From contig NZ_JADNOH010000085.1 of the NCBI RefSeq assembly GCF_015557435.1, positions 1 through 64,000 of the forward strand: a stretch of DNA of 64,000 nt, in the 5' to 3' direction. Numbering within the stretch: position 1 is the first letter of the stretch; each line of letters begins with the position of its first letter. Positions 10,812-25,388 of the stretch are shown here, in pieces. Both the position numbers and the translations under genes were made by a program. Source of the DNA: Collinsella aerofaciens (GTDB lineage Bacteria; Actinomycetota; Coriobacteriia; Coriobacteriales; Coriobacteriaceae). Below the pieces are notes generated by a model that was not told the DNA's origin, did no database searches, and saw only the letters and a program-made list of their open reading frames with translations.

Positions 10812-12776
10812 ATGGCAGAGAACCAGAACGCCGCAGATCAGGCATCGACGCTCAACGACGAGCGCGCCACCCGCCTGGCCAAGCGCGCCGCCCTGTTCGA
10901 GGCGGGCCAGAACCCCTATCCCGAGCACTCTGAGCTTGAGGACTACGTTGCCGATATCGAGGCTAAGTATGCCGAGCTTGCCGATGGCGAGGACACCGAG
11001 GACGTCGTGAAGATCGCCGGCCGTGTGGTCGCCAAGCGCGGTCAGGGCAAGATCATGTTCATCGTCGTGCGCGATGCGACTGCCGAGATTCAACTGTTCT
11101 GCCGCATCAATGACATGGACGAGGCTGCCTGGAATACGCTCAAGGCTCTCGACCTGGGCGACATCCTGGGCGTGACCGGCGTGGTTGTGCGCACCCAGCG
11201 CGGCCAGCTTTCCGTTGCCCCTAAGAGCGCGACCCTGCTTTCCAAGGCCGTTCGTCCGCTGCCCGAGAAGTTCCACGGTCTTTCCGACAAGGAGACCCGC
11301 TATCGCCAGCGCTATGTCGACCTGATCGCCAACGACGACGTTCGCGAGACCTTCCGTAAGCGTTCGCAGATTCTCTCCACCTTCCGTCGCTTTATGGAGT
11401 CCGACGGCTACATGGAGGTCGAGACCCCCATCCTGCAGACCATCCAGGGCGGCGCTACTGCCAAGCCGTTCATCACGCACTTCAACGCGCTCGATCAGGA
11501 GTGCTACCTGCGCATTGCTACCGAGCTGCACCTCAAGCGCTGCATCGTCGGCGGTTTTGAGCGCGTGTTCGAGATCGGCCGTATCTTCCGTAACGAGGGC
11601 ATGGACCTTACCCACAACCCCGAGTTCACCACGATGGAGGCCTATCGTGCCTTCTCCGACCTCGAGGGCATGAAGGCGCTCGCCCAGGGTGTCATCAAGG
11701 CGGCTAACAAGGCCATCGGCAACCCCGAGGTCATAGAGTACCAGGGCCAGACCATCGACCTTTCTGGTGAGTGGGCCAGCCGTCCCATGACCGACATCGT
11801 CTCGGATGTGCTCGGCAAACAGGTCACCATCGACACGCCGGTCGAGGAGCTTGCCGCCGCCGCGCGCGAGAAGGGCCTGGAGATTAAGCCCGAGTGGACT
11901 GCTGGCAAGATCATCGCCGAGATTTACGATGAACTGGGCGAGGACACCATCGTCAACCCGACCTTCGTGTGCGATTACCCCATCGAGGTCAGCCCGCTCG
12001 CCAAGCGTTTTGAGGACGATCCGCGTCTAACCCACCGCTTTGAGTTGGTTATCGCCGGTCACGAGTACGCCAATGCGTTCTCCGAGCTCAACGACCCGGT
12101 CGACCAGGCCGAGCGCTTTGCCGCCCAGATGGCCGAGAAGGCTGGTGGCGACGATGAGGCCATGGAGTATGACGAGGACTACGTGCGCGCCCTCGAGTAC
12201 GGTATGCCTCCCGCGGGCGGCATTGGCATTGGTATCGACCGCGTGGTCATGCTGCTCACCAACCAGGCTTCTATCCGCGACGTCCTGCTGTTCCCGCACA
12301 TGAAGCCCGAGAAGGGTTTCCAGTCCGGTGCCGCTGCCGCCAAGGCTGCCGAGGCCGGCAACGCCGCGAGCCCCTTCGTCAAGCCGCTCAAGCCCACGGT
12401 TGATTACTCCAAGATCGCCGTCGAGCCGCTGTTTGAGGAGTTCGTCGACTTTGATACCTTCTCCAAGAGCGATTTCCGCGCTGTGAAGGTCAAGGCGTGC
12501 GAGGCCGTCAAGAAGTCCAAGAAGCTGCTGAACTTTACGCTCGACGACGGCACTGGCACCGACCGCACCATCCTCTCCGGCATTCACGGTTATTATGAGC
12601 CCGAGGACCTGGTCGGCAAGACTCTGCTCGCCATCACCAACCTGCCTCCGCGCAAGATGATGGGCATTCCTAGCTGCGGCATGCTCATCAGCGCTATCCA
12701 CGAGGAGGAGGGCGAGGAGCGTCTCAACCTGATCCAGCTCGACGCCTCCATCCCCGCCGGCGCAAAGATGTACTAG
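10812..12776 (+). CDS. lysS: Lysyl-tRNA synthetase with C-terminal tRNA-binding domain
   Basis: This class II enzyme charges tRNA-Lys. The first 500 residues form a normal LysRS: an OB-fold anticodon domain, motif 2 (FRNEGMDLTHNPEF) and motif 3 (GIGIGIDRVVMLL). Residues from about 540 to 654 add an EMAPII/Trbp111-type OB fold (FDTFSKSDFRAVKV, KLLNFTLDDG, NLPPRKMMGIPSCGML), a module usually found on MetRS or as a free tRNA chaperone. A linker of about 35 residues joins the two parts. GAGGAG lies upstream of the ATG. The fusion is clear in the sequence; its benefit (tighter tRNA binding) is inference. Confidence 0.95.
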   Translation: MAENQNAADQASTLNDERATRLAKRAALFEAGQNPYPEHSELEDYVADIEAKYAELADGEDTEDVVKIAGRVVAKRGQGKIMFIVVRDATAEIQLFCRINDMDEAAWNTLKALDLGDILGVTGVVVRTQRGQLSVAPKSATLLSKAVRPLPEKFHGLSDKETRYRQRYVDLIANDDVRETFRKRSQILSTFRRFMESDGYMEVETPILQTIQGGATAKPFITHFNALDQECYLRIATELHLKRCIVGGFERVFEIGRIFRNEGMDLTHNPEFTTMEAYRAFSDLEGMKALAQGVIKAANKAIGNPEVIEYQGQTIDLSGEWASRPMTDIVSDVLGKQVTIDTPVEELAAAAREKGLEIKPEWTAGKIIAEIYDELGEDTIVNPTFVCDYPIEVSPLAKRFEDDPRLTHRFELVIAGHEYANAFSELNDPVDQAERFAAQMAEKAGGDDEAMEYDEDYVRALEYGMPPAGGIGIGIDRVVMLLTNQASIRDVLLFPHMKPEKGFQSGAAAAKAAEAGNAASPFVKPLKPTVDYSKIAVEPLFEEFVDFDTFSKSDFRAVKVKACEAVKKSKKLLNFTLDDGTGTDRTILSGIHGYYEPEDLVGKTLLAITNLPPRKMMGIPSCGMLISAIHEEEGEERLNLIQLDASIPAGAKMY

Positions 12777-17747: not shown

Positions 17748-17817
17748 TTGTAGAGAAGAGTTTCCGGTAACGATAAAATAATTGAAAGAGTTCTGCTGGA
17801 TGGCAAAAGGAGTTACT

Positions 17818-18387
17818 ATGGCGAATAGCGCTCAAAGAATTGAGATGTCGTTCGATAACATGAGAAAAATCGGAATGGTTCTTTGTGCCGTGCTGGTACT
17901 TATAGCCATCGCTACCATCGCCGTCTTTGGTTCGGCATTTGTTGTTGCATGCCAAAGTATTTTGAACGGCGCAGTGGTAATCGAGGGGGTCGTTGAGCTT
18001 GGTAAGGGCGGCAGCATCGCGCTCCCAAACTTGGCGCTATGGGCGGTTTTGCTCCTGGCAGGGGAGTTTACATTGTCAAGCATTAGCTTCGATGTCGCCC
18101 GTCGTCAATCGCCTTTTACTATCCGACATGCACGGATGATTGCCGTTATTGCCTGCCTATTTGCAATCAATGCCGTGATGGGCTCTCTACAGATTGGCAG
18201 CGATTTAAAAATAATGATGGGCAATTGTATGTTGAGCTGTCGTATGAATTCCGCTCTCCTTCAGATTGGTGACTCAGGCATCACTTTGGATGTGGGATCC
18301 ATCATTGCAATGATGGTCGCTTTCGCTTTGTCGATCTTCTGGCGCTATGGGGCGCTTTTGCAGTCCCAGTCCGATGATTTGGTCTAG
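17818..18387 (+). CDS. DUF2975 membrane protein
   Basis: This 189-residue protein has four predicted membrane segments (about residues 15-40, 58-80, 103-123, 156-175). It ends with the typical DUF2975 tail, here ALSIFWRYGALLQSQSDD, and has SPFT between helices 2 and 3. AAAAGGAG lies just before the ATG at 17818. DUF2975 genes are nearly always paired with a small Cro/C1-type regulator, as here ten bases downstream. The function is unknown; a membrane signal controlling the paired regulator is a reasonable guess. Base composition is lower in GC than in clpC and marks the beginning of the accessory segment. Confidence 0.82.
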   Translation: MANSAQRIEMSFDNMRKIGMVLCAVLVLIAIATIAVFGSAFVVACQSILNGAVVIEGVVELGKGGSIALPNLALWAVLLLAGEFTLSSISFDVARRQSPFTIRHARMIAVIACLFAINAVMGSLQIGSDLKIMMGNCMLSCRMNSALLQIGDSGITLDVGSIIAMMVAFALSIFWRYGALLQSQSDDLV

Positions 18388-18397
18388 GTGATTGACC

Positions 18398-18724
18398 ATG
18401 GATTATCTCATTATTGAGGTTGAGACGATTTTGCTTAAGACCGGGAAAACAAATGCCGATCTAATAAGAGCGACTGGGCATACGCCAGCTAACATTTCTA
18501 AAATCCGTAATGCAAAAATCAAAGCCATACGCTTGAAGACATTGCTTGATATCTGTGTTGAGTTGGATTGTCAGCCGGGAGATTTGATCCGTCGCGTGAG
18601 TGAAATAGAACTTGAGGAACTTACCATCGCGCGTGCGCGGAATAAGATTTTGCAAAGACGCAATCCCGACCCCTCCGAGATATTGCCCACAGAGGTTTAC
18701 GTAGTAGATCTTTCTAAGGAATAA
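18398..18724 (+). CDS. Cro/C1-type (XRE) regulator paired with DUF2975
   Basis: This 108-residue DNA-binding protein has an XRE helix-turn-helix over about residues 8-68 (LLKTGKTNADLIRATGHTPA, then ISKIRN and LLDICVELDCQPGDLI). The acidic tail is about 35 residues long. AGGTG at 18386-18390, overlapping the end of the DUF2975 gene, is the ribosome site for the ATG at 18398. A strong terminator follows, so these two genes form their own operon upstream of the RiPP genes. Whether it controls the RiPP promoter is unknown. Confidence 0.8.
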   Translation: MDYLIIEVETILLKTGKTNADLIRATGHTPANISKIRNAKIKAIRLKTLLDICVELDCQPGDLIRRVSEIELEELTIARARNKILQRRNPDPSEILPTEVYVVDLSKE

Positions 18725-18767: not shown

Positions 18768-18806
18768 AAGGCTCCTACTGAAACGATCGATAGGAGCCTT
18801 AATTTA
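18768..18806 (+). terminator. Intrinsic terminator after the XRE gene
   Basis: The 10-bp stem AAGGCTCCTA/TAGGAGCCTT has a 13-nt loop and is followed by AATTTATTT. It separates the DUF2975/XRE operon from the RiPP locus. Confidence 0.88.
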
Positions 18807-18820
18807 TTTGAAAATAGTTC

Positions 18821-18851
18821 TTGAAATCATTAGATTATCGATATACGATAA
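18821..18851 (+). promoter_or_regulatory. Promoter and possible operator of the RiPP locus
   Basis: TTGAAA (18821-18826) and TACGAT (18844-18849) have a 17-bp spacer. The inverted repeat TTATCG-ATATA-CGATAA (18835-18851) covers the -10 box and looks like a repressor site. Confidence 0.7.
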
Positions 18852-18891: not shown

Positions 18892-19002
18892 ATGAACTGG
18901 GTAATCGATCCGTGTAGCAACGTGCAGGGTGGCGGTGGTGGCTGCCGCAATTACCACCCGTGTTCGCGCTGTAGCTGTTTTGGCGTATATGTTCATTTCT
19001 AG
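18892..19002 (+). CDS. Cys-rich RiPP precursor peptide (candidate)
   Basis: This 36-residue peptide has a near-ideal ribosome site AAAGGAGGT seven bases before the ATG. It starts MNWVIDPC, runs through a stretch of five glycines (residues 13-17) and ends with Cys24-x2-Cys27-x-Cys29-FGVYVHF. The five cysteines are at 8, 18, 24, 27 and 29. There is no signal peptide, no GG-type cleavage site followed by a longer core, and no typical long leader. The radical SAM/SPASM maturase and exporters downstream make it the probable substrate. It would be missed by most gene finders because of its length. I do not recognise the family with certainty; known Cys-rich rSAM peptide families such as Clo7bot and CLI_3235 should be compared. 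Confidence 0.75.
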   Translation: MNWVIDPCSNVQGGGGGCRNYHPCSRCSCFGVYVHF

Positions 19003-19042: not shown

Positions 19043-19089
19043 GCAGCGTGGTCGATAACTGCCATCCGTCGGCCGCGCTGCCTTTTTTA
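19043..19089 (+). terminator. Terminator/attenuator between precursor and transporter genes
   Basis: The stem GCAGCGTGGTCG/CGGCCGCGCTGC (imperfect) is followed by CTTTTTT. It lies between the precursor and the rest of the operon with no new promoter visible. Partial read-through would give far more precursor mRNA than enzyme mRNA. Confidence 0.75.
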
Positions 19090-19105: not shown

Positions 19106-19834
19106 ATGGGTAATGCGATTTCAATCAAGGATCTATCAAAGCGCTACGGCAAAAACTGGGCGTTGTCTGATGTTTCATTTGATATAGATGAGGGCGAAGT
19201 GTGCGCTCTCGTTGGGGAGAACGGCGCAGGGAAGAGTACATTGATCGATATTCTTCTTGGCTTGCTTAAAGCAACGAAAGGCTCAATCAGTTTTTTCGGC
19301 GAGTCTGGGAGAACGGGTCTGGCAAGAGCGCGCAGAAACATCGGATTCGTCCCTGACGGCTGTGGGGCATTCTTGAACTTAACCGGGCGAGAAAACTTGA
19401 CCTCACGCTGTATCGAGTGGGGGCTGCCAAAAAGTGAAGTCAATCGAGTGCTCGCTGCCGTTGGTCTAGAAAATGCAGCGGATGCATCGGTAAAACAATA
19501 CTCTCTCGGCATGAAGCGGCGTCTGGATATCGGAACGGCTCTACTGGGCAACCCGCAATTGCTCATCATGGATGAACCGATAAACGGGCTCGATCCAGTG
19601 GGCGTGATCGAGGTACGTGATCTTCTGCTGTCGTTAAAGGACAGGAGGGATAAAACGGTGCTCATTTCAAGCCACAACCTAGATGAACTGGAGAAAGTCG
19701 CGACATCCTTCGCTTTTCTCCATCAAGGCCGACTTCTCGTTAAGGAAGAGAATTCCTATAAAGACAGAAGTCTGGAAAAGCGGTTTTTGGATTTGATCGG
19801 GGAGGCAGATAATGCAACTTCTGCGACTGATTAG
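19106..19834 (+). CDS. ABC transporter ATPase (BcrA/LanF-like)
   Basis: This 242-residue ATPase has Walker A GENGAGKST, signature YSLGMKRRLDI, Walker B LLIMDEPINGLDP and the switch His in LISSHNLDELE. The type is the small soluble ATPase that works with separate ABC-2 permeases, as in bacitracin and lantibiotic self-immunity. Two such permeases follow, the first overlapping by 23 bp. It probably drives export of the mature peptide or protects the producer (inference from context). Confidence 0.88.
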   Translation: MGNAISIKDLSKRYGKNWALSDVSFDIDEGEVCALVGENGAGKSTLIDILLGLLKATKGSISFFGESGRTGLARARRNIGFVPDGCGAFLNLTGRENLTSRCIEWGLPKSEVNRVLAAVGLENAADASVKQYSLGMKRRLDIGTALLGNPQLLIMDEPINGLDPVGVIEVRDLLLSLKDRRDKTVLISSHNLDELEKVATSFAFLHQGRLLVKEENSYKDRSLEKRFLDLIGEADNATSATD

Positions 19835-20615
19835 ATGCGAAGCCCGTCGGTTGCTCAGAAATCCAGCCTATTTCGTGTTGTTGATCTGGGGGATTTGGAT
19901 TGTTAAAGATGTCTGTAATCCAAATATGTATGGGACCTATGGAACATCTGATTTAGGGGGAGTCGGCAAACAGATCGGTTTCTTTGCGAACATCCTCGAC
20001 AAGACTGACCCGGCTGGTTCGGCGGTTCGGACGGCACTATTCATGACCTACGAGTGGTTTTTCGTTCTGGTCGGATGCATTGTTATTTCCTGTGCGATGG
20101 ATTATCAAAGCAGGTCTTCTGAAGTGACGTATGCAAAGGGTACGGGTATAGCAAAGGCCGTTGTCGCAAAGTGGCTTGTTCTGACGATTGCAACTTCAAT
20201 AGCGTTCAACCTGTTTTCGGGATTTACTCTCTTCAAATCTCCGCTTGGCTGCTATGTGGATGGGCGGGTGTTTCTTGATAGATACCTGCCCGTGTTGCTT
20301 TTGATTGATGTTATTTTGGCTGCATTAGTAGCTCAGTCGATGGCAGTTTTCTATTTACTTAGAAATGCACCGCTTAGCATTATGTTGGTGTTGGTCGGGA
20401 CGCTGCTCGCCTCCGATGAATATACGCTGGTGGTCTTTTCCAATCACGCATCGACGCAAATTCCCTGGTGGCTCTCAGTCGGACCATACTTACGCCATCT
20501 TGGAAATCTGTGCTTTCAAGGCCTAGCCATTAATCAGATCATTCTTTTCTCTGTTATTTGCACCGTTGTTTCGTTGCAGCTCGGGGTCATGGGAATCAAA
20601 GCGAGGAGGGGGTAG
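19812..20615 (+). CDS. ABC-2 permease 1 of the RiPP locus
   Basis: This 267-residue membrane protein has about six helices. It begins with the cytoplasmic segment MQLLRLIRCEARRLLRNPAY, typical of ABC-2 permeases, and has YGTSDLGG after the first helix. The start overlaps the ATPase gene by 23 bp, with GGGGAGG just before it. The next permease starts two bases after its stop. It shows weak similarity in layout to the second permease, as expected for LanE/LanG-like pairs. Confidence 0.8.
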   Translation: MQLLRLIRCEARRLLRNPAYFVLLIWGIWIVKDVCNPNMYGTYGTSDLGGVGKQIGFFANILDKTDPAGSAVRTALFMTYEWFFVLVGCIVISCAMDYQSRSSEVTYAKGTGIAKAVVAKWLVLTIATSIAFNLFSGFTLFKSPLGCYVDGRVFLDRYLPVLLLIDVILAALVAQSMAVFYLLRNAPLSIMLVLVGTLLASDEYTLVVFSNHASTQIPWWLSVGPYLRHLGNLCFQGLAINQIILFSVICTVVSLQLGVMGIKARRG

Positions 20616-20617
20616 AA

Positions 20618-21427
20618 ATGCGCTGCGAAGATATGATTAAGGCTGAAGCCTATCGAGTTATGAAGAGCAAAGCGCCTCTTCTGCTGATTGCGGCAGGTTT
20701 CGTGCTCGCATTGCTTTATTCTGTGTCTTATGAACCATGGAGAGCCTACGGAACGAGCGATTGGCTTGGCGACGGTGTTATGGGCTTCTTTCCAAACCCA
20801 CAATATGGTTTTGGGGGAATTCCGGGAGACCTCGTTAAAGATGGAGCTCGCTACCTTTCCGCTGTGGCACCGCTTGCCCATTCTCTGTTCTTTCCTATTG
20901 TTGCTGTTCTCGTCATCGGCTATGCGTTTCGAACTCCGATAACGGGATCTCAATGGCTTGTTTCCTATGCAAGGGGAATGAAAACAGTACAGTTGTTGGT
21001 TGCAAGGACTCTTGTCTCGATTGTCACGCTTGTCGGTGGTTTTGTTCTCTTTTCGATACTCGTTGGTGCGGTCCAAAGCGCGAGTGGCATAGGAATGACG
21101 ATGGATATGATCGGAGAGTTTCTTCTTCGGCTGTCTCTTGCTGCCTTGATTTGCACAACGTTATGCCTGCTGCTCGTCCTGGCCATCTCGCTCTTTGGAA
21201 ATGGCGCGTTTGTTCTATCGTTCATCATCCTGCTGCTTTATTTGGGGTATGGGAATCCAAATATGCCACTGCACTTGACATGGCTGGCGACCCTTGCGTC
21301 CCCGCGACCAATTCAATTCATCGTGCCGGGGACGTTGCTATTTGTAGCGCTGGCAACAGTCGTTCCCATTGTCATCCTCGGACTTTGTTGGGCTATCAAG
21401 GGTGCTATCAGAAAACGGAGCATATAA
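20618..21427 (+). CDS. ABC-2 permease 2 of the RiPP locus
   Basis: This 269-residue membrane protein has about six helices, again with a basic amphipathic start (MIKAEAYRVMKSKAPLLL) and the motif YGTSDWLG after helix 1. GAGGAGGGGG directly before the ATG at 20618 decides the start, although the frame is open further upstream. Its stop codon abuts the radical SAM start. Together with the preceding ATPase and permease it forms one transporter, probably for immunity or export. Confidence 0.8.
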   Translation: MRCEDMIKAEAYRVMKSKAPLLLIAAGFVLALLYSVSYEPWRAYGTSDWLGDGVMGFFPNPQYGFGGIPGDLVKDGARYLSAVAPLAHSLFFPIVAVLVIGYAFRTPITGSQWLVSYARGMKTVQLLVARTLVSIVTLVGGFVLFSILVGAVQSASGIGMTMDMIGEFLLRLSLAALICTTLCLLLVLAISLFGNGAFVLSFIILLLYLGYGNPNMPLHLTWLATLASPRPIQFIVPGTLLFVALATVVPIVILGLCWAIKGAIRKRSI

Positions 21428-22714
21428 ATGAAAGAGTCTGAATTTAACGTTATTGAAGAGAATGATGTGAACGGTATCACTATCTACAATACCCAGTCTG
21501 GTGGCGTTCTCGACCTTGACGCTGCGCACACGAATGAGCTGAATTTATATCGCAAGGGTGCTGCCGCCTTGGATGGTGATTTCGAAGAGGCCCTTAAGAT
21601 GGGTGGCATGTTGGTAGATGACGATGTTGACGAGCGGCGAATGTTGATGCTTGAGAGTTTGTCGGCAAGGTTTGCAAATGACTATTTAGGACTGACGATT
21701 GCTCCAACGCTGGCATGCAATTTTAGGTGTCCCTATTGCTATGAAAAGGGCTGCTCGCACCCCACTATGTCAGAAGAGACAATGACGGATATCGCAGAAT
21801 TCGTGCGTTCCGGCTATCCCGGGATCAACGATCTTCACGTTGACTGGTATGGAGGCGAACCCCTACTCTGTGTGGACATGATCGAGCGACTGACAAAAGA
21901 ACTGAGAGGGGCGATTAGGCCAGGCGCTACTTATTCTGCCGGAATGGTAACGAACGGATATCTCCTGACGCGAGAAATTGCTCAGAAGCTTGCTGATTGT
22001 CAGGTCGGTTCGGTTCAAATCACTATCGATGGCTCAAAGAGGGATCATGATTCGCGGAGGGTCCCGGCCGACGGTCGTCCGACATATGATGCCATTATCG
22101 ACAATATAATCTCATGTGCCGATGTTCTTCAGATTACCATTCGCGTGAATGTCGATGAGTCCAATAGCAAAGAGGTCGATGCGTTGATTGACGAGCTTGA
22201 CGCTAAAGGGCTTCGCGGTAAAGTCGCGATTTATCTTGCTGCGGTCGACAATGTTAACGATACTTGCGCAAATGACATTCATTGTTTTTCTCAGCGTGGG
22301 TTCTCTCAAGTTGAAACGTTCTTTATGGATAAAGCTAGCGAGCGCGGATTCAACGTTATTCCGTTTACGCCGTATGAACCAGGTGTCTGCTGTGCGGTTT
22401 CCCTTAATTCGTTTGTCATCGATCCGCTTGGTAGACTTTTTAAATGTTGGGATGAGGTTGGCAAGGGCGAGTGCGCCGTTGGAAATGTTCGAGAAGGTGT
22501 GAAAGCTAATTCGAACTATTTGAAATGGATGGAGTATTTACCAAACGACCCGGTATGTGGCGAGTGTGTAATGTTTCCGGCTTGTATGGGCGGATGTCCC
22601 CACGCCGCGATGGAGGGTCAGAGAAAATGCGCGAGCGTTAAATTCAATGCAAGGCAGAGAATGCGGTTGGCTTGTAATTATCAGTATTCGCATGAGGCAA
22701 ATCACGATGTTTAG
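21428..22714 (+). CDS. Radical SAM/SPASM peptide maturase
   Basis: This 428-residue enzyme carries the radical SAM cluster motif Cys97-x3-Cys101-x2-Cys104 (CNFRCPYC), the WYGGEPLL glycine motif and a complete C-terminal SPASM region. The SPASM region reads C-x12-G-x4-C, a gap, C-x2-C-x5-C-x3-C (CGECVMFPACMGGC), then C. SPASM enzymes bind extra 4Fe-4S clusters and install thioether, C-C or similar crosslinks in ribosomal peptides. The N-terminal 80 residues (including YNTQSGGVLDLD) could hold the peptide-binding part. It starts immediately after the permease stop, with CGGAG upstream. The substrate is most likely the Cys-rich peptide at 18892. Confidence 0.92.
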   Translation: MKESEFNVIEENDVNGITIYNTQSGGVLDLDAAHTNELNLYRKGAAALDGDFEEALKMGGMLVDDDVDERRMLMLESLSARFANDYLGLTIAPTLACNFRCPYCYEKGCSHPTMSEETMTDIAEFVRSGYPGINDLHVDWYGGEPLLCVDMIERLTKELRGAIRPGATYSAGMVTNGYLLTREIAQKLADCQVGSVQITIDGSKRDHDSRRVPADGRPTYDAIIDNIISCADVLQITIRVNVDESNSKEVDALIDELDAKGLRGKVAIYLAAVDNVNDTCANDIHCFSQRGFSQVETFFMDKASERGFNVIPFTPYEPGVCCAVSLNSFVIDPLGRLFKCWDEVGKGECAVGNVREGVKANSNYLKWMEYLPNDPVCGECVMFPACMGGCPHAAMEGQRKCASVKFNARQRMRLACNYQYSHEANHDV

Positions 22715-24338
22715 ATTTTGGAAGATATATCTCCTCCATAAGCCAAGGCTTTATGTCTATCTGCTTCTCGATGTCTTGTCTCAACTGTGCAGCCTTGCTG
22801 AACCATATTTGTTGGGACTGACTGTAAATGTGCTGGCGGCAAAAAATGTCCTCGGAATTAGTTTGCGGACGCTAGTCTTATGTATTTTCGCGATTGGCGT
22901 GGTCGCCATTGTGGGGTCGGTGTTGGCCTATTGGACTTCCCTAATCTATGTCGACCTTCAAGCGCATGCGGGATATCAACTTAACGCTGACACACTTGAA
23001 CACGTCAAGCGTTTGCCCCGGAAGTTTTTCATCGGATTTGATGCGGGCTATTATAATCAGCAAATCAATCACGATTCAAACGATCTCATAATATTCGGAA
23101 TAACATCGGCGTCAAATATCATTGGCGGTGTTGCAACGATTGTTTGTTCCTTGATTATGTTGATGAATATAAACATTGCGATGGCGATTGCCTGTCTAGC
23201 CTGCATCGTTACGGGGGCAGTAGTTTATCGATTGTTTAGCGGGCTGCTGTTCAATCGAGGCTTTGAGTTTCAAGAAAAGACCGCTGCTTTCTATGGGACT
23301 CTCCAGAGCCAGCTGGAGAGCGTCTCCTTTCTTCGTCGCCATTCATTATTCGATTTCTATTCCTTGAGGCTGCAGAAGGCTTTCGATGGTCTTTATCCAG
23401 CTATATTGGCTAACCAAAAAGCCGGATCACGGTTCGAACTTGCGAATCAGTTGATTTTTTCCTTTGCGCAGTTCTGTTTGCTCGCGATTGGAGGCTGTGA
23501 GATTGTCGCAGGCAAAATGCCGGTTGGTTTTCTGCTGACGGCATTGAGCTATTATTCGAGCGCCAATTCTGCTCTGGTGAACTTGCTTTCTTGGGGCAAA
23601 AGCTACCAGGCGAGCAAGGTGAGCGCCCAACGCCTTAAGCGCCTTTGGGCAATGGATGAAGAGGTGAACGGTTCTGTCCGCATTGGCTCTCCTGTTTCAC
23701 TTGTGTGCAAGGGCCTGTCGATTTGTCGCCCTGATACCGATCGAATCATAGATTATCCAGAGCTCATCTCGCTTAATCGAGGGGTCTTATACGGCGTGTC
23801 GGGCGCAAACGGAAGCGGGAAAAGCACGCTTCTCGATGGCATAGCTGGTCTATATCCCGATGATTGCGTTGGGACTATTGCTTATGACGAGGTTGATTTG
23901 AGTCAGATTGATTCTATAAATCTACGCTCGTATGTCGTTGGTATTGCCGAGCAAGAACCTGATATCGTTAACGGAACACTCAGAGAGAATCTGACGCTAC
24001 TCGCGGGCGATAATTGTCCAATTCTTGAAGTCGGGCGACTTGTAGACCAGTTTGGTCTGACCAAACTGGTCTCAACACTTCCCAATGGTCTTGATGGGGT
24101 GCTGGACGAGCAAAACCATAATATATCGGGTGGTGAGAAGCAGAAGATTGCGATTATTCGTGTTTTGCTTAAGGACTCACCCGTCATGTTATTCGATGAA
24201 CCGACGTCGGCTCTTGACGGAGCGAGTAGGTCAGCGTTCATTGATATTCTGCAACAGAAGAAAGAGGATCATATAGTGGTTGTTGTCTCGCATGATCCCG
24301 AGTTGCTTGAGGCTTGCGACGAAGTGATTGAGCTGTAG
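22707..24338 (+). CDS. ABC exporter (fused membrane and ATPase domains)
   Basis: This 543-residue half-transporter has six membrane helices in the first 300 residues. Its ATPase has Walker A SGANGSGKST, signature ISGGEKQKIAI and Walker B VMLFDEPTSALD. There is no N-terminal C39 peptidase domain, so it exports but does not cut a leader. The ATG at 22707 overlaps the maturase stop and is preceded by GAGG with nine bases between. An alternative ATG lies at 22692. Base composition is AT-rich (sampled lines 35-53% GC). It is the last gene of the RiPP operon. Confidence 0.85.
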   Translation: MFRFWKIYLLHKPRLYVYLLLDVLSQLCSLAEPYLLGLTVNVLAAKNVLGISLRTLVLCIFAIGVVAIVGSVLAYWTSLIYVDLQAHAGYQLNADTLEHVKRLPRKFFIGFDAGYYNQQINHDSNDLIIFGITSASNIIGGVATIVCSLIMLMNINIAMAIACLACIVTGAVVYRLFSGLLFNRGFEFQEKTAAFYGTLQSQLESVSFLRRHSLFDFYSLRLQKAFDGLYPAILANQKAGSRFELANQLIFSFAQFCLLAIGGCEIVAGKMPVGFLLTALSYYSSANSALVNLLSWGKSYQASKVSAQRLKRLWAMDEEVNGSVRIGSPVSLVCKGLSICRPDTDRIIDYPELISLNRGVLYGVSGANGSGKSTLLDGIAGLYPDDCVGTIAYDEVDLSQIDSINLRSYVVGIAEQEPDIVNGTLRENLTLLAGDNCPILEVGRLVDQFGLTKLVSTLPNGLDGVLDEQNHNISGGEKQKIAIIRVLLKDSPVMLFDEPTSALDGASRSAFIDILQQKKEDHIVVVVSHDPELLEACDEVIEL

Positions 24339-24510: not shown

Positions 24511-24870
24511 ATGGAAGCCGAATTGCTCGATAAAAAATCTATTCAGATGAACGTGCGCATAGATCGCCAGCTCAAAGAAGCCGGAGATGCCGTTCTGGCG
24601 CATATTGGCATGACGCCGTCAAAAGCCGTTCGGACACTTTGGGAGTATCTGGTCGTTAACGGACGCATGCCCTCGAAGGGAGACGCGGCGGCTCCGGTTT
24701 CTGACGGAGTGGAGCCCCGGCGCATGGAATCAAGGGCCGCGCAAGGCAGCCATATCGTTCGCGATTCGTGCCTCAAATACGGCATCCCCATCCCTGAGTT
24801 CTCGGGAGACTATGACGACCTCTATGAGGAGGCCATGGCGGAGCGCTATCCCGAGTGGGTGGAACTATGA
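24511..24870 (+). CDS. RelB/DinJ-type antitoxin
   Basis: This 119-residue protein has an N-terminal ribbon-helix-helix motif of the RelB/DinJ type (QMNVRIDRQLKEAGDAVLAH and GMTPSKAVRTLWEYLV). A C-terminal region of about 60 residues would neutralise the toxin. AAGGATGAGG precedes the ATG. Its TGA overlaps the toxin ATG (ATGA). RelB/DinJ antitoxins usually pair with RelE/YafQ toxins; pairing with a PIN toxin as here is a less common combination. Autoregulation through the inverted repeat upstream is likely. Confidence 0.85.
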   Translation: MEAELLDKKSIQMNVRIDRQLKEAGDAVLAHIGMTPSKAVRTLWEYLVVNGRMPSKGDAAAPVSDGVEPRRMESRAAQGSHIVRDSCLKYGIPIPEFSGDYDDLYEEAMAERYPEWVEL

Positions 24871-25388
24871 GCACAGAAGGCGTCCTCAAGCTGTTAATCG
24901 ATACCAACGTATGGATGGATTACTTTTCTGGCAGGTCCGACCGTACGGCAAATGTCGTCCATCTGATCGAGATTGCCGACGCCTCGGAGCGGATTGCCCT
25001 GTTTGCCTCGTCGCTTTCGGTCAAAGACGTTTCATATCTTGTCTCGGCGGCAATCAAGCAGGAGTGCCGAAGAAAGACTGGCTCACTGAGTGATAACGCC
25101 ATTGCGGCGGCAGATGAAACGGCCTGGGCATGCGTTCGACAGATGCGCGAGCTAGCCCTCATCGCCCCGGTCGGTGCAGACGAGGTCTTCGACTCCTTTG
25201 TGTTCAAGTATCATCACAACGATTTCGAGGACGACCTGATGCTGGGCGTCGCCAATCGTATCGATGCCGATTACGTGGTGACCGAGGATAAAAATCTCAT
25301 TAAACATACCAATGGTGTATGCATTAACGTCGAAAAGGCGTTGAGGTTGGTTGGAGAGGTCAACAGCTCATCCGCCCTGTCCATCTAG
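24867..25388 (+). CDS. PIN-domain ribonuclease toxin
   Basis: This 173-residue protein is a PIN domain, a metal-dependent RNase fold. The first acidic residue is Asp12 in LLIDTNVWMDYF. Further acidic residues lie in the DEVFDS and NDFEDDLMLGVAN segments, and ADYVVTEDKNL gives the last. It overlaps the antitoxin stop by four bases, so both are made together. Cleavage of tRNA or mRNA is the usual effect of such toxins; the exact target cannot be seen. Confidence 0.87.
   Translation: MSTEGVLKLLIDTNVWMDYFSGRSDRTANVVHLIEIADASERIALFASSLSVKDVSYLVSAAIKQECRRKTGSLSDNAIAAADETAWACVRQMRELALIAPVGADEVFDSFVFKYHHNDFEDDLMLGVANRIDADYVVTEDKNLIKHTNGVCINVEKALRLVGEVNSSSALSI

Follow-up and report, generated by a model that had tools for sequence, protein, structure and literature searches.

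A five-cysteine peptide encoded beside a radical SAM/SPASM maturase in Collinsella aerofaciens is probably the precursor of a leader-guided, modified bacteriocin

Introduction

Ranthipeptides carry thioethers from Cys to a β or γ carbon, and sactipeptides carry thioethers from Cys to an α carbon. PapB (freyrasin) and other ranthipeptide enzymes are radical SAM (rSAM)/SPASM proteins with an RRE domain, whereby Cys thioethers are formed in a leader-guided and core-tolerant manner; in PapB the Cys partners are carbons of Asp or Glu (PMC9413430), and chemistry of this type has no need of Cys pairs. In lasso peptide and LPP systems, the RRE reads a [Y/W]xxP motif, and the choice of Trp or Tyr decides the binding pathway (PMC13381572).

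The locus described here lies in a 64,000-nucleotide stretch of C. aerofaciens DNA (GCF_015557435.1, contig NZ_JADNOH010000085.1; hereafter the window). As with PapB and the ranthipeptides, it encodes an rSAM/SPASM maturase with a predicted RRE, but this enzyme reaches only 132.8 of the 340 bits of the PapB model, and the peptide core contains no Cys-x3-Asp/Glu. The best NCBIfam match of the maturase is TIGR04463 (283.5 bits over residues 6–412; cut-off 525), a family that also has short Cys-rich precursors; the window maturase, however, belongs to a separate supported clade whose precursors have Trp, not Tyr/Phe, at position 3. Clo7bot belongs to the sister group, but the window maturase scores 261 bits against its model TIGR04334 (cut-off 600), and the precursor has no match at E 1 to the Clo7bot peptide model TIGR04333 (cut-off 31 bits). 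As the maturase falls below every curated family cut-off, a bond type cannot be transferred to it. We propose, with a probability of about 0.7 for the reading as a whole, that the ORF at 18892 encodes the precursor of an rSAM-modified RiPP, most likely a thioether-bridged bacteriocin, made by the pathway set out below. The kind is known; what is new is probably an uncatalogued Trp-leader clade of RRE-fused rSAM/SPASM maturases with Cys-rich precursors, probably bacteriocins.

Results

The precursor gene and its operon

The precursor ORF is real, and encodes the 36-residue peptide MNWVIDPCSNVQGGGGGCRNYHPCSRCSCFGVYVHF between an ATG at 18892 and a TAG stop at 19000–19002 of the forward strand. 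The preliminary description of its letters was correct on re-reading: seven residues precede the first Cys (Cys8), five Gly form residues 13–17, the end motif is C24-x2-C27-x-C29, and there are five Cys in total. Directly 5′ of the ATG, AAAGGAGGT provides a strong Shine-Dalgarno sequence. Of the Cys-containing short ORFs with a Shine-Dalgarno sequence in the window (17 forward, 6 reverse), the precursor alone matched the leader pattern given below, and the DNA pattern for a Shine-Dalgarno sequence, ATG and MxWxxxP was found once in the whole genome, with 0 control matches. Searches with the precursor sequence alone, plasmids included, gave nothing convincing outside its own genome because it is too short as a query; none of the NCBIfam models matched it.

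The operon is co-directional, in the order membrane protein, HTH regulator, precursor, ABC ATPase, two permeases, rSAM/SPASM maturase and ABC exporter (Table 1). Its G+C content of 47.8%, compared with about 60% on both flanks, suggests horizontal arrival. Membrane-protein homologues with 31–37% identity occupy the equivalent position in other clusters of Collinsella, and the HTH regulator is 68–75% identical in homologous clusters. The hairpins on both sides of the precursor, the second with CTTTTTT, were revealed by RNA folding; a consensus terminator scanner with a loop limit of 8 gave no terminator. With this arrangement the precursor is probably on its own transcript with limited read-through, and the second hairpin is expected to be a terminator or attenuator favouring the precursor transcript over the downstream genes. 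A pair of short ORFs 3′ of the operon (24511–25388), RelB/DinJ-type antitoxin-like followed by toxin-like, was recognized by eye.

Table 1. Positions in the window of the operon genes and of signals around the precursor
Feature	Position	Strand	Remarks
Membrane protein, 201 aa, about 5 TM segments by hydropathy	17782..18387	+	true start likely a downstream ATG
Cro/C1-type HTH regulator (HTH_26)	18392..18724	+	PF13443, 2.9e-15; start probably ATG 18398
Hairpin, terminator-like stem GGCTCCTA...TAGGAGCC	18768..18800	+	regulator-precursor gap; folding -17.7 kcal/mol, z -5.1
Promoter-like hexamers TTGAAA-17-TACGAT	18821..18849	+	weak consensus match only; 3 sites against 1.2 expected
Precursor peptide, predicted leader 1-17 and core 18-36	18892..19002	+	ORF and homologue alignment
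Strong hairpin followed by CTTTTTT	19043..19087	+	directly 3′ of precursor; folding -26.5 kcal/mol, z -3.4
ABC ATPase, LanFEG-like module, putative self-immunity	19106..19834	+	best match TIGR03740, 192.8 bits, cut-off 309.75
ABC-2-type permease 1	19812..20615	+	domain match
ABC permease 2	20618..21427	+	start ATG 20618; open frame from TTG 20558
rSAM/SPASM peptide maturase, 428 aa	21428..22714	+	RRE-like domain 1-85; rSAM CxxxCxxC 97-104
ABC exporter, TM and ATPase fused, without C39 peptidase domain	22707..24338	+	likely start ATG 22707; frame open from ATG 22647

Homologous precursors share a short N-terminal leader

Homologue mining was started from the maturase and covered related clusters in the genus, the order and then 80 GTDB loci from several phyla. 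A scan of genome contigs with the single maturase gave no relatives, but a search with a maturase alignment did; a search of IMG/VR gave weak relatives only. The pattern M-x-[WYFIV]-[IVL]-x-x-P at the extreme N-terminus was present in 61 of the 176 short ORFs with Cys and a Shine-Dalgarno sequence on the forward strand and in 0 of 61 on the reverse strand, with at least one matching short ORF at 39 of 81 maturase loci. Some precursors, such as MKWINKASEDKSTRICWVYNDKGCGSKKATCVIRY from Blautia, were matched by a looser pattern only. When 58 distinct precursors adjoining related maturases were aligned, the N-terminus was conserved and the remainder variable, as in RRE-dependent RiPPs; the conservation of P7 is partly circular, having been built into the search pattern, with positions 3 and 4 less constrained (residue 3 was allowed five letters). 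The proposal that MNWVIDP acts as the recognition part agrees well with this alignment. The accompanying statement that the peptide lacks a classical leader does not: the conserved N-terminus and variable rest, together with a first Cys at 13–24 in the homologues, indicate a short leader, about 17 residues long.

Within the window's clade, 22 of 25 precursors have Trp as residue 3; among the remaining 42, Tyr or Phe takes this place in 32. The maturase tree splits the Trp group from the Tyr/Phe group with support of 99/95. The sister Tyr/Phe clade includes true Clo7bot, represented by the maturase of Paraclostridium benzoelyticum locus L139, which served as positive control for TIGR04334 (731.7 bits); its precursors begin MKFIK-x-P, and thus MKFI-x-x-P, and have their first Cys at 16. 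At the same locus (L139:239-1722), a single maturase is preceded by a series of six pattern-matching Clo7bot-type precursors, whose leaders are nearly identical and whose cores have diversified. The split between W-x3-P and [Y/F]-x3-P looks like the logic of the lasso/LPP systems with one residue more between the anchors. TbiB1, PbaB1 and LppB resemble the window in their RRE fold and in a leader motif made of an aromatic residue and Pro; the window differs in the W-x3-P spacing at the extreme N-terminus and in the fusion of the RRE to the rSAM enzyme.

A longer leader, starting from the in-frame TTG at 18808 (28 codons upstream), was considered and rejected, because this codon is not conserved and its Shine-Dalgarno-like sequence belongs to the hairpin at 18768–18800. 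Pfam analysis bore out the earlier observation that neither ABC protein carries a C39 domain. For 46 homologous exporters, the frequency-ranked list of 25 families does not include C39 either, which is therefore present in at most one of them; the sole C39-like frame of the genome (349 aa) is on another contig and unlinked. The locus therefore does not have the C39-bearing exporter of a double-glycine leader bacteriocin. The 86 proteins encoded co-directionally next to the precursor at such loci included no recurrent peptidase family, Rce1-like proteins occurring in two. Two observations named beforehand as telling against the preliminary description, a conserved longer leader from an upstream start and an always-linked protease gene, were thus not made.

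The lack of a C39 domain and of a recurrently linked protease would fit a product that is exported uncleaved as the whole 36-residue peptide, in which the truly encoded Cys8 would be a working residue (as a free thiol, by binding metal or by linking to a second molecule). We consider this unlikely, as it is the N-terminus that is conserved, in leader-like fashion, against a variable remainder, and residues 1–12 contain no Cys in any homologue, so that Cys8 is no family feature. RiPP pathways commonly rely on proteases encoded elsewhere, and lack of a protease at the locus does not show lack of cleavage; the leader is probably removed by such an enzyme.

The core region and its cysteines

In 57 homologues the first Cys is found at positions 13–24 (mean 17.3, sd 2.5). 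Relative to this distribution Cys18 of the window has a z of 0.3 and Cys8 a z of -3.7, which places the start of the core at Cys18 and Cys8 in the leader, probably as a stray linker Cys rather than a core bridge residue. Residues 1–17 are accordingly best read as a leader composed of the motif M1-x-W3-V4-x-x-P7 and the linker CSNVQGGGGG (8–17), and residues 18–36 as the core, C18-x3-HPC24-SR-C27-x-C29-FGVYVHF. It had been noted earlier that no GG or other cut site is visible; the GGGGG directly before Cys18 was overlooked, but there is indeed no linked C39 peptidase to use it. For this reason GGGGG was rejected as a double-Gly cut site. Gly before the core Cys is seen also in Collinsella G002, Dorea and Paenibacillus, but is missing in 30 of 58 precursors.

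The segment C18-RNYHPC24-SR resembles CHVMSPCKR, CNVMHPCKR and CHVSHPCKR of three 28-aa precursors with two Cys; MEWIIKPVEDEDVLGRCHVMSPCKRGLD is a 28-aa relative. The first of these motifs comes from Olsenella, whose maturase is the nearest tree neighbour of the window maturase (100/95). Only four of 67 precursors, the window's and the three 28-aa peptides, fit C-x3-[HS]-P-C-[KS]-R, and shuffling the window core 200,000 times gave this pattern by chance 16 times. Post hoc, a C-terminal C-x-[IV]-[RKHN]-[FYWL] ending was observed in 12 of 25 precursors of the window's clade versus 5 of 42 others.

As 28 of 58 precursors have an odd number of Cys, oddness is uninformative, and the argument from disulfide parity was dismissed. 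The earlier conclusion that at least one Cys must stay free, bind metal or crosslink elsewhere is likewise not supported, Cys-to-carbon thioethers needing no Cys pairs. The peptide is nevertheless Cys-rich and probably exported, and rSAM chemistry is here inferred, all of which would suit an ordinary disulfide-rich bacteriocin with an rSAM gene nearby by chance. Such a coincidence is very improbable given the odd Cys number of half of the precursors, the co-occurrence of the leader motif with this maturase family across phyla, and the way in which residue 3 follows the maturase tree.

The maturase and its predicted leader-binding domain

The window maturase has a complete rSAM CxxxCxxC motif (97–104) and, at 321, 340, 377, 380, 386, 390 and 401, SPASM cysteines invariant among relatives. 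An AlphaFold2 model based on a 54-row alignment had a mean pLDDT of 92.6, and matched anSME over the catalytic part (Z 28.8), CteB over residues 4–419 (Z 27.5) and TigE over residues 1–420 (Z 24.3). Motif, SPASM cysteines and predicted fold place the protein in the rSAM/SPASM RiPP maturase superfamily. The thioether maturase CteB of the SCIFF system (5WGG, 5WHY) is the closest solved fold over the RRE and catalytic domains together, but identity is about 20%, the score against TIGR03974 is 71 bits (cut-off 425), and the window precursor, with five Cys, is not a six-Cys-in-45 peptide.

Residues 1–86 predicted alone gave a βββ-ααα domain with a pLDDT of 94.3. Its best PDB matches were TbiB1–leader complexes (a lasso peptide RRE) and TigE, with probabilities of 0.99–1.0 and modest Foldseek E-values (7.6e-3 at best, range about 0.008–0.08). 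The first ~85 residues are thus predicted to fold like leader-binding, PqqD-like RRE domains, consistent with an RRE-dependent RiPP. RRE positions 8, 10, 35 and 61 are largely aromatic in the Tyr/Phe clade and less so in the Trp clade; these positions may accommodate the larger Trp, a difference that phylogeny alone could explain.

The ABC module and stepwise decay of the locus in Collinsella

The ABC module resembles LanFEG self-immunity transporters in the best match of its ATPase and in having one ATPase and two permeases adjoining the precursor; it differs in a score below the TIGR03740 cut-off (Table 1) and in a cluster with an rSAM maturase, not lanthionine synthases. A LanFEG-like function is proposed because of this architecture and of orphan loci. 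A full relative of the cluster is present at one site in C. aerofaciens 1001136B (G002) and MCC370 (G009), whereas other Collinsella have only the membrane protein, HTH regulator, ATPase and permeases at that site (8 loci). Flanks of orphan and full loci are ~89–96% identical, and the loss of maturase and exporter is marked by one shared junction. All that remains of the precursor in seven genomes is a Shine-Dalgarno sequence and ATGAGC, which continue in frame into the ATPase gene. The second copy in the window genome (contig C46) has a different junction, ATGAG, in which the start of the precursor runs straight into that of the ATPase; it may have arisen independently or by further deletion from the first junction. 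In G054 (L153) the precursor is intact, with maturase and exporter lost at the shared junction, an intermediate from which the order of loss follows: maturase and exporter first, precursor second, protection kept. The immunity-only remnants with precursor start-codon scars are L146:4285-7676 (contig C46), L147, L148, L150 and L152–L156, L153 being the intermediate.

Between orphans, the ATPase is intact with a dN/dS of about 0.07–0.2 and the permeases are intact with 0.2–0.3. By these comparisons, the regulator and ABC module are left under purifying selection after stepwise decay, and the orphan modules point to immunity retained by former producers, hence to a bacteriocin with separable immunity. 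The module could in principle have a role other than immunity, and orphan modules could serve regulation. A peptide that binds metal or acts as a signal, served by the ABC module as importer or sensor, would make sense of the dense C-x2-C-x-C end and of an HTH regulator and membrane protein in the conserved module. It is nonetheless improbable, as Cys spacing varies freely among homologues, and the module both resembles lantibiotic self-protection transporters and persists by itself where maturase and exporter have been lost, as expected of immunity.

At locus L017, about 11300–12050 (Collinsella 4_8_47FAA), a masked run of N lies in the ATPase gene region, and a long inverted repeat follows the second precursor (RNA fold -69 kcal/mol).

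Proposed pathway and its relevance

For the thioether-bridged bacteriocin favoured here, the M-x-W-[IV]-x-x-P tag would dock as an extended strand in the N-terminal RRE domain, as fold and motif suggest, and the short variable linker CSNVQGGGGG would give the core, beginning at Cys18, access to the rSAM/SPASM active site. There, going by the enzyme family, Cys thiols would be joined to carbons of other residues. The modified peptide would leave through the C39-less exporter, its leader probably cut off by a protease whose gene lies outside the cluster, and the ATPase with its two permeases would protect the producer, persisting alone in non-producers. Docking, chemistry, leader removal and killing activity are the parts of this pathway that we infer.

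An odd 36-residue ORF thereby becomes a member of an uncatalogued precursor group without an NCBIfam model. Its docking code, W-x3-P versus Y/F-x3-P, is readable and testable by a one-residue swap, and the 28-aa two-Cys relatives offer a minimal substrate for the maturase chemistry. The three states of a single site in Collinsella (producer, intermediate, immunity-only) form a natural record of bacteriocin locus decay with protection kept. More tentatively, the Trp-leader clade (the window, Collinsella, Olsenella, Blautia, Dorea, Peptostreptococcus and others) might be a separate RiPP subclass with a bond pattern not yet described, C-x3-HPC-x-R its minimal two-Cys substrate, and the immunity modules stand-alone resistance loci in gut Collinsella.

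Other radical SAM loci

A different, strikingly conserved precursor-like ORF of 61 aa, whose end is PCGTICQPYSAQPGTPCGCKCMMYCAGK or close to it, was seen directly 3′ of another rSAM/SPASM gene in several Coriobacteriales genera (L055:6625-6810, L059:5871-6056, L052:6820-7005); it has no NCBIfam family. At L085, L093, L101, L126, L129, L131 (Zixibacteria) and L133, a related maturase is followed by a second, divergent rSAM gene, and many precursors at these loci share a P-L/M-Y-[GS]-[IV] end motif.
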